DNA of 64,000 bases from Bacteroidota bacterium (lineage in GTDB: Bacteria; Bacteroidota; Bacteroidia; UKL13-3), in the NCBI GenBank assembly GCA_013298895.1, contig JAAFJM010000007.1:62001-126000 (forward strand). The letters run 5' to 3'. Positions 36,326 to 41,518 of this stretch are shown here, piece by piece (position 1 is the first letter of the stretch; each line of letters opens with the position of its first letter). The translations under genes were made by a program, and so were the position numbers. Below the pieces are notes generated by a model that searched no databases, had not been told where the DNA came from, and saw only the letters and a program-made list of their open reading frames with translations.

Positions 36326-36886
36326 TTGAGTAGCGCATATATAGAAATTAGCTGTAATTTTATGAAAATAGCTGTCAGAAATAACGAATTAGTATTTAGA
36401 AAAGGAAAAACTGAGAATTGGATTGCTTCAATGTCATACCTAGATTATTCCTTAAACTTTATTTTTAATGAGTCAATTTTCAAAAAAAGTGAAAGTGATT
36501 TTTTAATAGATTGGAAACTTGTTGAAAAGTTTATTAATCATTTTATAAGTAATCTTGAGTCAATTCAATTCATAGGCTCAACCTCGATTCAAGAGTTTCA
36601 AAAGAATGTTCATTTAAATGATTCCGATTATAGAAAAGAAATTGGGAATTTTGAAATTGACGAAATCGAATTAATAGATTTTAGAAAACGAGTTGATTAT
36701 GACCAGAACAATAATGAGTTTAAATTATATAATTTTAAATATAATGTAACTTTCTTTTTTGAAAGAGCTAACAATGGATATTCTGAATCGGCAGATGCTT
36801 TTCCAGAATATCCATACATCGCTCAATTTTCCAATCATAATTCATTAACTTTAATGGGTGTCTTTAACGACATTTGGAGTTCTTAA
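36326..36886 (+). CDS. hypothetical protein
   Basis: I do not recognise this 186-residue protein. It has no signal peptide or membrane segment, and is rich in Phe, Tyr, Asn and acidic residues. The second half reads as beta strands (FKYNVTFFFERA) and ends LMGVFNDIWSS. Size and composition recall the many small immunity-type proteins, but no motif supports that. The first in-frame codon is TTG at 36326; the ATG at 36362 (174 residues) is an equally good start. It stands alone, followed by a terminator and the 90-bp tandem array, in a repeat-rich gap before metH2. Confidence 0.5.
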   Translation: MSSAYIEISCNFMKIAVRNNELVFRKGKTENWIASMSYLDYSLNFIFNESIFKKSESDFLIDWKLVEKFINHFISNLESIQFIGSTSIQEFQKNVHLNDSDYRKEIGNFEIDEIELIDFRKRVDYDQNNNEFKLYNFKYNVTFFFERANNGYSESADAFPEYPYIAQFSNHNSLTLMGVFNDIWSS

Positions 36887-36942
36887 AAATAATCAAAAAT
36901 GACATTATTTGACGTGTTCAAACAACAAAATAATATTACAAA

Positions 36943-36979
36943 AAAACCGCTTTAGTATTAAAACTAAAGCGGTTTTTAT
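36943..36979. terminator. Rho-independent terminator after the 36326 gene
   Basis: AACCGCTTTAGT (36945-36956) pairs with ACTAAAGCGGTT (36963-36974) with a six-base loop, an A-run before and a T-run after. Confidence 0.9.
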
Positions 36980-37024
36980 TTTTATAATTAATTATCGTAT
37001 AACCCAAGTGAGTTGATAACTCTG

Positions 37025-37256
37025 TAACCGTCTGACGCCTTGCCAACGCAAACCTCAACGCAATCGTCTGACGGTATGTGCTTCGAATTTCTTTTTTCGA
37101 ATTTCCTATTCAAATAACCGTCTGACGCCTTGCCAACGCAAACCTTAACGCAATCGTTTGACGGTATGTTATTCGAATTTCTTTATTCGAATTTCCTATT
37201 CAAATAACCGTCTGACGCCTTACCAACACAAACCTTAACGTAATCGTCAGACGGTA
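37025..37256. repeat. three-unit tandem repeat, 90-bp period, hairpin-forming
   Basis: Units start at 37025, 37115 and 37205 with TAACCGTCTGACGCCTT. Each has a 52-base body ending in GACGGTA; its ends (ACCGTCTGACG and CGTCWGACGGT) pair as an imperfect stem, perfect in unit 3. Inside each body CAACGCAA recurs, exactly in unit 1. The 38-base linkers are nearly identical and carry TTCGAATTTC twice. Because the linkers are conserved this is a tandem array and not a CRISPR. Confidence 0.9.
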
Positions 37257-37288
37257 ATTTCTAACAACTATCAACTGCCAACTAACAA

Positions 37289-39961
37289 CTAATTATCGTA
37301 ACCCAAATTAGGAGCTAACCATTTTTCAACGTAATCAATGCTTACGCCTTTGCGTTTGGCATATTCTTCTACTTGGTCTTTTTGAATTTTACCTACTGCA
37401 AAATATTTACTTGCTTCGTTGGCAAAATAAAAACCACTTACTGCCGAAGCCGGATACATGGCAAAGTTTTCAGTTAATACAATTCCTGCGTTTTCCTCTG
37501 CGTGTAATATATCAAACAACTTACGTTTTTCTGTATGGTCTGGGCAGGCAGGATAACCTGGCGCAGGACGAATACTGTTATATTTTTCACGTATAATTTC
37601 ATCATCGGTTAATTGCTCGTTAGGTGCAAAACCCCAATATTCTTTTCTAACCAATTCGTGCATTTTTTCTGCAAAAGCCTCGGCCAATCTATCGGCAATG
37701 GCTTTAATCATAATGCTATTGTAGTCGTCATGGTCTTTTTCGTATGCTTCTACCAAAGGTTCAATTCCAATTCCGGCAGTTACCGCAAACATGCCTAAAT
37801 AATCTTTTTTGCCACTTTCTTTCGGTGCCACAAAATCAGCCAAACATAAGTAGGGTTGTCCATCGGCTTTTTCGCCTTGCTGACGCAAATAGTTGAAAGT
37901 TGTTGGTTGTCCGTTGTTAGAAATAATTACATCATCACCAACAGCATTTGCTTCATAAAAACCAATTACTCCGCGTGCGGTAAGTAGTTTTTCGTTAATT
38001 ACTTTATCGAGCATTTTGTTGGCATCGTCAAATAATTTTTTGGCTTCAATGCCTACTATTTCATCATTAAAAATAGTAGGATAACGCCCCACTAATTCCC
38101 AAGTTAAAAAGAAAGGAGTCCAATCAATTCGTTGGCGCAATTCTTCTAACGGAAAATTATCAAATACTTTTGTTCCTAAAAATTTAGGTGCAACAATATT
38201 GTCAAAACTCACCGAAATTTTATTGGTTCTTGCTTTTGTTAAATCAACTGAGTTTTTATCTTTTTTACGGTTTTTATAATCAATTCTAAATTGTTCGTAT
38301 TCGTCTTTAAACTTCTTTTCCGAAGCTGCTCGTTGGTCAGGACTGATTAAACTTGCCGCCACAGGCACACTTTTACTTGCATCTAACACATGTACAACTG
38401 GTCCGCTATAAACTGGGTCAATTTTTACTGCTGTGTGCGCACGGCTGGTTGTGGCTCCTCCAATTAACAATGGAATTTTCATTCCTAAACGTTCCATTTC
38501 TTTGGCTACATGCACCATTTCATCCAAACTTGGTGTAATCAATCCACTTAAACCAATTACATCTACATTTTCTTTAATGGCAGTTTCCAAAATTTTATCA
38601 GCAGGAACCATTACCCCAATATCAATTATTTCGTAATTGTTACAAGCCAATACCACACCTACAATGTTTTTACCAATATCATGCACATCGCCTTTAACAG
38701 TTGCCATTAAAATACGCCCTTGGTTGGTGGTCATATTTCCATTTTTACGCTTCTCCTCTTCCATGTAAGGCATTAAAACAGCCACTGCTTTTTTCATTAC
38801 ACGTGCACTTTTAACTACCTGCGGTAAAAACATTTTTCCAGCACCAAACAAATCACCCACAATGTTCATTCCAGCCATTAACGGGCCTTCAATCACTTCA
38901 AGTGGTTTGTCGTAAATTAACCTTGCCTCTTCGGTATCGGCTTCCACAAACTCAACAATTCCTTTTATTAATGCATGACTCAAACGCTCTTGAACCGTTC
39001 CTTTGCGCCATTCATCATCTACAATACTTTCTTTTCCTTTTCCTTTAACACGTTCTGCAAGCTCTAATAAACGTTCGGTGGCATCGTCTCTTCTGTCCAA
39101 TAAAACATCTTCTACATGTTCTAACAATTCTTTGTCAATCTCGCTATACACTTCCAATTGACTTGGGTTTACAATGCCCATATCCATACCATTATTGATA
39201 GCATGAAATAAAAACGCTGAGTGCATGGCTTCACGTACTTTATCATTTCCTCTGAACGAAAAAGAAACATTGGATACGCCACCACTAACTTTTGCACCTG
39301 GCAAATTTTCTTTAATCCATTTTGTTCCGTTAAAGAAATCTAAAGCATTTTTTCTATGCTCTTCCATGCCAGTTGCAACAGGAAAAATATTAGGATCAAA
39401 AATGATATCACCCGCAGGGAAATGAACTTTTTCAGTTAAAACTCTATAAGCTCTTTCTGCAATTTCAATTCTGCGTTCGTAGTTATCTGCTTGTCCTTGT
39501 TCGTCAAAAAGCATTACAATTACTGCAGCTCCAAAACGTTTAACAATTTTAGCTTGGCGGATAAATTCTTCTTCGCCACCTTTCAACGAGATAGAATTTA
39601 CCACACATTTACCTTGCACACATTTTAATCCAGCTTCTATAATTTCCCATTTAGAAGAATCTATCATAATTGGAACACGTGAAATATCTGGCTCTGATGC
39701 AATCAAATTTAAAAAGCGCACCATTGATTCTACCCCATCAATCATTCCTTCATCCATATTGATGTCTATGATTTGCGCTCCGCCTTCTACCTGCTGACGA
39801 GCAACAGCCAAGGCTTCTTCAAAATTACCTTCACGAATAAGGCGTAGAAACATTTTAGAACCCGTTACATTGGTTCTTTCTCCCACATTTACAAAATTGG
39901 TATCTTTAGTAATTACCAATGGCTCCAAGCCCGAAAGGCGTAATGTATAATCTTTGTTCAT
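37289..39961 (-). CDS. metH: methionine synthase, pterin-, cobalamin- and SAM-binding part (MetH2)
   Basis: An 890-residue protein equal to the C-terminal three modules of cobalamin-dependent methionine synthase. Residues about 15-290 are the methyltetrahydrofolate-binding barrel ([28 protein letters not shown]). Residues about 310-400 are the helical cap, and 400-540 the B12-binding domain with DVHDIGKN and [13 protein letters not shown]. Residues about 570-890 are the reactivation domain with [15 protein letters not shown]. The homocysteine module is the separate gene at 40514. Both halves have complete domain boundaries, so this is a split enzyme and not a broken one. The operon is headed by a SAM-I riboswitch. 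Confidence 0.95.
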
Positions 39962-40028: not shown

Positions 40029-40391
40029 TTACTTATTGTCTTGTTTAATCTTCAAAATCAAATTATTTATCTGTTTTTGAATTTTATTTATTTCATTAAT
40101 TAAAGGTACTATGGTTTCTTCGTTTGTAAAGCCAATTTCCTTGCACAATAGGAGTTGGGTTTCTAATTCAAAAGAAGAACCAATTGCTATTTCTAAAAAC
40201 CTTTTAAATTCTTTATCACTATTTCTGCTAGTACCTTCAGCAATATTAGAAGGTATTGAAACCGCTGCTCTGCATATTTGAGAAATCAATCCAAACTTTT
40301 CTTCTTTGGGCAAACTCAATGAAAATTGATATACTAATTTAACCAAGTTCATGCTGTCATTCCAAATGTCGTATTTTTTAAAATCTCTCAT
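40029..40391 (-). CDS. four-helix bundle protein (23S rRNA intervening-sequence protein family)
   Basis: A 120-residue protein of the four-helix-bundle family first seen in 23S rRNA intervening sequences and related to the accessory protein of diversity-generating retroelements. The signature is [21 protein letters not shown] followed by [21 protein letters not shown]. No reverse transcriptase or rRNA gene is near. The gene lies between the two halves of metH, with dispersed repeats on both sides. It could be co-transcribed with them, but there is no known link to methionine synthesis. Its function is unknown; it looks like an inserted accessory gene. Confidence 0.9.
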
Positions 40392-40530
40392 TTTTTTGCT
40401 ACTGGCTTTCGGCTGCTAGCCTCTGGCCAATTTCAATTTTGTTTTATAATAATCTTCTTTTTTATATGCTAAAACTAGCTATAAGTTGTCTGCCATAAGC
40501 CAGCTGCTAGAGGCTAGTTGCTAGAAGCCT
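40392..40530. repeat. GCTAGCCTCTGGCC-type repeats between the bundle gene and metH1
   Basis: Two blocks, 40392-40432 and 40469-40530, carry TTTCGGCTGCTAGCCTCTGG and AAGCCAGCTGCTAGAGGC, the latter with TAGTTGCTAGAAGCCTCC. The second block includes the metH1 stop codon (40514-40516) and its last five codons, so the MetH1 C-terminus EASSN is repeat-encoded. Confidence 0.75.
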
Positions 40531-41518
40531 CCTGCAAAATCCTCGGTTCATACTTCGCTGCCATTTCTGCAATAGCTTTGATATGATCTGGAGTAGTTCC
40601 GCAACAGCCACCTAAAATATTTACCAATCCTTCCTTGCAAAATTCTTCCACTTGTTTTGCCATTGCTGCCGGGCTTTCATCGTATTGTCCAAACTCGTTA
40701 GGCAAACCTGCATTTGGATACGCACTTACATAAAATGGCGAATGTGTTGACATTACCTGTAAATACGGACGCAATGCACTTGCTCCTAATGCACAATTTA
40801 AACCAATGCTCATTAAAGGTGCATGTTGCATACTTATTAAAAATGCCTCTGTTGTTTGACCTGATAATGTTCTGCCCGAAGCATCTGTAATGGTTCCTGA
40901 AATCATAACTGGATAATGTTTTCCAAGTTCTTCAAAAACTTCATCAACTGCATATAATGCAGCTTTTGCGTTTAAAGTATCAAAAATGGTTTCAATCAAT
41001 AAAATATCAACACCACCTTCAATTAATTTAATAGCTTGTTGTTTATATGCCTTTACCAATTCATCAAAAGTAGTAGCTCTGTAACCTGGGTCGTTTACAT
41101 CTGGGCTAATGGATAAAGTTCTGTTAGTTGGTCCCATTGCACCTGCAACAAATCTAGGTTTGTGTGGTTCTTTTGTAGTCATTTCATCAGCTACTTCTCT
41201 GGCAATTTTTGCTGAGTAATAATTGATGTCATCAACCAAATGTTCTAAATGATAATCGGCTTGCGCAATTGTAGTTCCACTAAAAGTATTGGTTTCAACA
41301 ATGTCTGCGCCTGCCTCAAAATACAAACGATGAATGCCTTTAATAATTTCAGGACGAGTAATTGAAAGTAAATCATTGTTTCCCTTTAAAGGATGCGCAT
41401 GATTTGCCAAAGCCTCATTTCTAAAATCAGCTTCTTCCAATTTATGTCGTTGAATCATGGTACCCATTGCACCATCCAAAATCACAATTTTTTTCTTTAG
41501 TATGTCGTATATGTTCAT
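40514..41518 (-). CDS. metH: methionine synthase, homocysteine-binding part (MetH1)
   Basis: A 334-residue homocysteine S-methyltransferase barrel equal to the N-terminal module of MetH. It opens with the typical [20 protein letters not shown]. The zinc-binding cysteines are in IGLNCALGA and in [12 protein letters not shown] near the C-terminus. It supplies homocysteine binding to the MetH2 protein, which carries folate and cobalamin. The gene is first in the operon behind a SAM-I riboswitch, with a 165-base gap filled by dispersed repeats. Its last residues are encoded by one of those repeats. Confidence 0.93.

Follow-up and report, generated by a model that had tools for sequence, protein, structure and literature searches.

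The array downstream of metH2

The window (here, the whole 64,000-nucleotide stretch of DNA that was analysed, from a Bacteroidota bacterium) contains a tandem array at 37025-37256, reported by Tandem Repeats Finder with a period of 90, 2.6 copies, 92% matches, and a score of 401. As an earlier note made from the letters alone had it, the array lies in a gene-free gap beside an uncharacterised open reading frame (ORF) and downstream of metH2, from whose stop codon the nearest hairpin unit is separated by 33 nt. In the following list, '+' for hairpin units denotes the strand of the covariance model R1 described below (the metH2 sense strand being the reverse complement), and '.' denotes that no strand is assigned:

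36326..36886, +: ORF of 186 aa with a sub-threshold match only, to DUF6398 (E 0.0011)
36942..36977,.: inverted repeat I4, a hairpin resembling a terminator and bordered by T-runs on either side, on the far side of the array from metH2
36986..36999,.: 14-nt partial repeat (family D3, 93%) of the end of metH2 at 37287-37300
37025..37075, +: REP hairpin unit 1 (R1 match 76.4 bits; fold z -4.3)
37076..37114,.: linker 1, a heptanucleotide-type repeat (TTCGAATTTC x2), a repeat of its own
37115..37165, +: REP hairpin unit 2, with a T.T mismatch and one G.T wobble (R1 match 74.9 bits)
37166..37204,.: linker 2, of the same kind as linker 1 (repeat analysis, Tandem Repeats Finder)
37205..37255, +: REP hairpin unit 3, whose perfect stem is unusual in the family (R1 match 70.8 bits)
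37257..37292: CAACT-type short repeat adjoining the array
37289..39961, -: metH2 (methionine synthase pterin-binding, B12-binding, and activation domains); the array is situated downstream of its stop codon

The window was compared with a genus set of ten genomes that includes its own, designated G000. The T-runs of the hairpin at 36942..36977 and of its counterpart in G006 were read by eye. The copy of the metH2 end at 36986..36999, across the array from the gene itself, may be a trace of local duplication, short two-copy families being of a kind that can also arise by chance. Runs similar to the CAACT-type repeat occur near metH2 in G001, G007, and G008.

Elsewhere in the window, a SAM riboswitch (RF00162, 41682-41787, minus strand, 68.6 bits) precedes the other methionine-synthase part, ORF 40514-41518 (minus strand; named by eye). 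Between the two methionine-synthase genes lies a 120-aa ORF (40029-40391, minus strand) that looks like one of the four-helix-bundle proteins associated with 23S intervening sequences. An Rfam scan of the window at gathering score returned that riboswitch as its sole match and no hairpin family, and a known Rfam RNA was therefore rejected as the identity of the array.

The three units, each 51 nt long, start at 37025, 37115, and 37205, and the first two are 94% identical across 90 nt. The stem of the unit bodies is ACCGTCTGACG/CGTCWGACGGT. Units 1, 2, and 3 fold with energies of -16.4, -14.6, and -19.0 kcal/mol, respectively, and only 0, 1, and 0 of 200 dinucleotide shuffles of each fold equally well. 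Repeat detection and folding thus bear out the three-unit hairpin array with a 90-bp period described in the earlier note. That note had also described nearly exact 38-base linkers along with its three units; the linkers number two and not three, are of the same kind, and measure 38-39 nt each. Its description of the stems was right in giving one mismatch (a central T.T) to unit 1 and a perfect stem to unit 3, and incomplete for unit 2, in which a G.T wobble accompanies the T.T mismatch.

Distribution of the hairpin family

A BLAST search with the array found four further places in its own genome, plus copies in related genomes. The covariance model R1 was built from 42 copies (alignment A1, from which one candidate without a second arm was excluded) and matches 127 copies, including the three of the window, at 100 sites in nine of the ten genomes of the genus, with 6-29 copies per genome. 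The highest number (29) is that of G009, which also carries an intact gene of the transposase discussed below, and the search of G005 found no hairpin. By shared neighbour genes, the 100 sites fall into 42 clusters, 19 of which span at least two genomes. Copies measure 47-53 nt, with 23-29 nt between the arms, and eleven of the 127 overlap mechanical ORF calls. The family has the attributes by which REPs are generally defined, as in PMC12306157: it is extragenic, palindromic, and short, shares a common consensus, and is present in many copies.

The earlier note had proposed a wider search for the unit, with absence elsewhere as the outcome that would leave a simple local duplication. That reading, a local duplication with no wider family, accords with the variation in copy number at metH2 among species; it is refuted because 127 copies are dispersed through the genus, and we give it practically no chance.

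At the family level, R1 matches at E 0.001 in 13 of 64 genomes, and an exact paired-arm pattern occurs in 12 of the 64, compared with none for a reversed control pattern. Copies in a sister genus (g8) have the same arms and a short loop (7-9 nt between arms). Paired arms were found in 13 genomes of a phylum sample of 395, and the reversed control in three; several of these copies lie 3-18 nt past stop codons, mostly in the opposite polarity, and some prove to be simple tandem repeats of a different type. Six named records with an exact match are labelled Bacteroidetes, two of them as Chitinophaga pinensis, and one is from a pond.

A viral origin was rejected: 11 IMG/VR matches to CCGTCTGACGN{22,34}CGTCTGACGG are other sequences, namely blocks or tandem repeats of CCGTCTGACGG. 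Ten of these 11 viral contigs (L191-L201) share a conserved block with repeated CCGTCTGACGG that is unrelated to the hairpin family. The Neisseria DNA uptake sequence shares CCGTCTGA with the hairpin.

Two further repeat arrangements were seen in G009. At 2500-2790 of locus L160, copies of the hairpin, three in all, alternate with another palindrome-like sequence (CGATAGCTATCG and similar ones), in the manner of a two-repeat mosaic element, and the starts of contigs C85 and C114 carry long runs of a 14-nt unit, TTCGAATTTCGTGC.

Structure of the hairpin

Covariation was counted in 128 distinct copies of 130 matches (gene context and polarity, below, refer to the 127 R1 matches), using alignment A2, which was fitted to model R1; alignment A1, which was not, shows similar kinds of change. 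Stem cells are paired in 89% of cases, and 118 cells are changed on both sides, where shuffles give 58 and slid structures 6-18; counted by whole pairs, the six that show a two-sided change are not distinguishable from the 5.2 of the shuffles. The outermost pair is AU in 50 copies, UA in 39, CG in 19, and unpaired in 20. Complementary outer triplets come in ten different kinds and are fully Watson-Crick in 88 of 127 copies. The hairpin is under structural constraint, and its outer stem pairs covary.

The central position is T.T in 126 of the 128 distinct copies and T-A in the other two, one of which is unit 3 of the window. The mismatch is therefore the norm of the family and the 'perfect' unit 3 the exception, which overturns the suggestion in the earlier note that the mismatches reflect ongoing divergence or compensatory drift.

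Because every arm is nearly self-complementary, covariation between arms was compared with covariation within an arm. A palindromic operator array, in which each CGTC-T-GACG arm would be a site for a dimeric DNA-binding protein, is in keeping with that self-complementarity. Changes of the first arm base, however, are tracked by the hairpin partner (MI 0.39) and not by the partner inside the arm (MI 0.017). Hairpin pairing, not a within-arm palindrome, explains the covariation; an operator in each arm was rejected on these values, and the 'protein binding array' of the earlier note, in this form, is extremely improbable.

Among orthologous copies (23 hand-picked groups rather than every site), differences per site amount to 0.073 in arms, 0.159 in loops, and 0.19-0.25 in flanks; detection favours intact arms, so the low arm divergence overstates the constraint. 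Wobble pairs lean towards the sense RNA in the outer stem (34 versus 19) and towards the other strand in the inner helix (68 versus 22), and thus indicate no clear strand.

The associated RAYT gene

Searches with PF01797 found many Y1 transposases. At 53 loci drawn from part of these matches (some of them overlapping), the sole hairpin lies 172 nt from a Y1 gene of G008; among a further 59 loci, exact hairpins are present in three, namely L379 (chosen for its hairpin), L380, and L381. Save at the one G008 locus, the Y1 transposases found by PF01797 showed no linkage to the hairpins, a misleading outcome, as the cognate RAYTs score too low for this profile and were missed by it. In L381 (1-1100; G242), some 300 nt separate a GGTCAGACGG..CCGTCAGACC hairpin from a RAYT that belongs to a different branch.

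The cognate RAYT was first detected as a weak match (E 3.6e-4) in G016, a genome of sister genus g8. Its gene is intact (194 aa) and lies between two inverted hairpins, the arm cores of which are 20 nt and 6 nt away. A tblastn search of the sampled loci with this protein found the same gene in G009 and G000, both at about 64.6%. In G009 it is intact (197 aa) and lies between inverted arm cores, the upstream one ending 26 nt short of the start and the downstream one beginning 16 nt beyond the stop. In G000, the genome of the window, it is broken by in-frame stops at codons 107, 179, and 185; two complete hairpins detected by R1 stand upstream, and a degenerate downstream copy is seen by pattern only, unreported by R1. 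In all three genomes, the first hairpin lies 0-3 nt past the stop of the same carboxyl-transferase gene (identified by PF01039 in G016), and the flanks align across them. A fourth homologue, in G085 (genus g2), is 49% identical; there (L277, 1381-2620), the RAYT has variant hairpins on either side, densely arrayed head to tail.

The hairpin-flanked proteins match NCBIfam NF047646 (REP-associated tyrosine transposase) at E 1.8e-13, 3.9e-15, and 1.3e-20, with scores of 50.6-73.8 bits that lie under the curated cut-off of 80, and contain the motifs NHFH and YIHQNP. In a PDB profile search of up to E 0.1, the only match is TnpA-REP 4er8 (E 0.0016, best stretch 26 residues). A tree of RAYTs places them in a clade with relatives from G130, G229, and G404 (support 99/98, for L380, L170, L350, L374, and L377 in a tree computed without L277 of G085). 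Those relatives are flanked by other hairpins, which in G130 also have a central mismatch (by eye).

A REPtron is defined by the same inverted hairpins on both sides of a Y1/HUH gene, an arrangement found with an intact gene in G009 and G016 and, in weaker form, in G000 (broken gene, degenerate downstream copy) and G085 (variant hairpins). Since the same inverted hairpins flank the RAYT gene, the units make up a REP family accompanied by its REPtron, which is an established type of system. Among the three identities offered in the earlier note, the 'mobile small-repeat cluster' has accordingly fared best: the units belong to a dispersed REP element, copies of which flank a RAYT gene.

A RAYT of the hairpin-flanked type was found in two of the nine hairpin-bearing genomes of the genus; none was found in the fetched flanks (up to 2.5 kb) of hairpins in the other seven, one of which has 18 copies. 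G016, conversely, has an intact gene and few hairpins (two exact pairs, one model match), so the presence of the gene does not by itself account for how many copies there are.

History at orthologous sites

Across the genus, metH2 is 93-99% identical, some matches being partial. Past its stop, three units are found in G000 and one each in G001, G004, G006, G007, and G008; G005 has none, and G003 retains only a one-arm remnant, as expected from a deletion between arms (G002 and G009, in which the gene end is not covered, were left out of this comparison). The terminators past the metH2 hairpins, read by eye, are of one type in G000 and G006 and of another in G001, G004, G007, and G008.

The linker pattern occurs in all ten genomes of the genus, including G005, where R1 found no hairpin, and the linker is thus a repeat in its own right that the duplication carried along. 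For the array of the window, the most likely origin is that one REP was duplicated in tandem along with a linker of heptanucleotide repeats. At another site, one copy is present in G001, G002, and G004 and two in G008, the duplicated stretch including flank. Sites without the hairpin were identified by blastn of joined flanks at a hexapeptide-protein gene and metH2 in G003 and at an AIR-carboxylase gene in G005; an exact insertion junction was sought at these hairpin-free sites, and none was obtained. Sites are shared between species, and copy number changes locally.

Position relative to genes

By mechanical ORF calls, on which all gene context rests, the 127 copies divide into 43 with convergent neighbours, 59 with neighbours in the same direction, seven with divergent neighbours, 11 that overlap an ORF call, and seven at contig ends. 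Where the model-3' side faces the end of a gene (102 copies), a stop codon is less than 15 nt away in 43 copies, compared with 6 of the 57 copies whose 5' side does so (Fisher p 3e-5, the copies not being independent). Counted by site cluster (up to 15 nt, n=42), the tally is 18 sense versus 4 antisense: 14 clusters are sense only, none is antisense only, and four are both. In 92 copies the closest stop facing the hairpin is on the sense side and in 24 on the opposite side, while 11 copies have none. On the sense strand of the gene, the usual order is stop, 2-8 nt, and a hairpin with an A.A mismatch. Copies show a preference for the region 3' of genes and for one orientation there. The neighbours are, by eye, varied housekeeping genes, four of which were confirmed by Pfam (inositol monophosphatase, hexapeptide protein, AIR carboxylase, and phosphofructokinase). 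Integron attC sites also combine a post-stop position with a single-strand hairpin.

GC-rich stem-loops 3' of genes, 43 of 127 of them between convergent genes, are what a family of intrinsic transcription terminators would look like. This reading was rejected, and is very improbable, on account of the missing T-run: none of the 58 copies within 60 nt of a stop has one directly after its stem. A separate terminator-like site lies downstream of 16 of these 58 (37 of 635 in a shuffle control), and a canonical terminator (by eye) follows the metH2 copies in G000, G001, G004, G006, G007, and G008.

The same polarity invites another explanation, namely that the hairpin is an RNA element of the 3' UTR first and, however it arose, is kept by selection directly behind stop codons because it protects mRNA 3' ends or slows termination. 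The one-sided distances to the stop, the absence of clusters that are antisense only, the lower divergence of arms than of flanks at orthologous sites, and the place of the metH2 hairpin between stop and terminator all speak for it, and REPs of Escherichia coli within 15 nt of a stop are reported to lower translation (PMC12306157). Against it, arm conservation is partly built into detection, the host genes (by eye) have no common theme, the metH2 unit has been lost in G003, wobble pairs lean to opposite strands in outer stem and inner helix, and near-stop copies in distant families are mostly of opposite polarity. As the primary account of the family, it appears unlikely to us. A role in the mRNA like that reported for those E. 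coli REPs is possible, and the 'structured RNA array' of the earlier note may survive in this sense, as a secondary role of the hairpins.

Comparison with known systems

REP/RAYT systems (REPtrons, exemplified by E. coli TnpA-REP and the RAYT groups) resemble the present family in their dispersed intergenic hairpins, often near gene 3' ends, in the inverted hairpin pair that flanks a Y1/HUH RAYT gene, and in an irregular stem. Unlike them, the present family is without the 5' GT[AG]G tag, has units that are single or head-to-tail, leaves 23-29 nt between arms (7-9 in g8), and shows a one-sided polarity to stops in the genus. Its units are also longer, at 47-53 nt, than the 14-40 nt given for E. 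coli in PMC12306157.

The family best fits the description of TnpA-Y1 subclass 2.6 by Quentin et al. 2018 (PMC6006769), the comparison resting on published motif and size. That paper describes RAYT-like genes in Bacteroidetes with 'atypical secondary structures' on their flanks, copies of which occur elsewhere in the genome, and a YIH[QN]NP motif; the mean size is 179 aa there and 194-197 aa here. The HUH motif differs, being NH[LIV]H there and NHFH here.

CGTC-tagged REPs (Di Nocera et al. 2013 [PMC3733652]) share with the present family the CGTC motif, the location near gene ends, and a reported occurrence in Bacteroidetes. As characterised there, however, their CGTC is unpaired, the stem is 8-9 bp, the loop 4-5, and the tail CCA-like, and they have no attached transposase, whereas here CGTC is paired in the stem, the loop is long (23-29 nt between arms), and a RAYT is attached; the hairpin thus falls outside the CGTC super-family as delimited there. 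It likewise lacks the mark of the GTAG super-family of the same source, GT[AG]G 5' of the stem, in its flank frequencies, which show a conserved A on one side and an AGTT-like sequence on the other (AACT on the opposite strand). The hairpin is atypical for a REP in having neither a GT[AG]G tag nor an unpaired CGTC tag, and in its conserved mismatch and long loop. Among the matches listed in a full-text literature search for CGTCTGACG, none was on such a repeat by title and start of abstract, and among those listed for REPs in Bacteroidetes, there was no description of the present family.

Origin and significance of the family

The units are very probably a REP family that belongs to a RAYT of Bacteroidota type, a reading that takes in both spread by the RAYT and tandem duplication at metH2. 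The hairpins are dispersed in the genus and flank the RAYT gene as an inverted pair, and the RAYT is most likely the enzyme that spread them, transposition being deduced from sequence. This RAYT, an HUH/tyrosine single-strand nuclease, would have recognised the mismatched hairpin in single-stranded DNA and have cut and pasted copies into new sites. Many copies would then have been inherited vertically as the RAYT degenerated or disappeared. The three units at metH2 would derive from a single inherited REP, multiplied by tandem duplication together with the heptanucleotide-repeat linker, and a hairpin once placed there would be transcribed in the metH2 3' UTR, ahead of the terminator.

A more tentative proposal, to which we assign a low probability, is that the genus has kept RAYT hairpins as standing post-stop RNA elements: mismatched, in sense polarity behind the stops of housekeeping genes, retained after decay or loss of the transposase, and still acting on translation termination or mRNA 3' ends.

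The hairpin family is a new REP family with its RAYT, within a known kind of system, and this sequence-level description of an atypical Bacteroidota family has a practical consequence for annotation. RAYTs of this kind score no higher than the PF01797 cut-off (21.6 bits for the G016 protein, against a cut-off of 23), so a search with that profile can miss them. With its conserved mismatch at the centre and no tag, the hairpin suggests another mode of recognition of hairpin DNA by an HUH transposase. Because the RAYT is intact, broken, or not found among related genomes, a REP population can be followed site by site from its birth through its spread to its decay.
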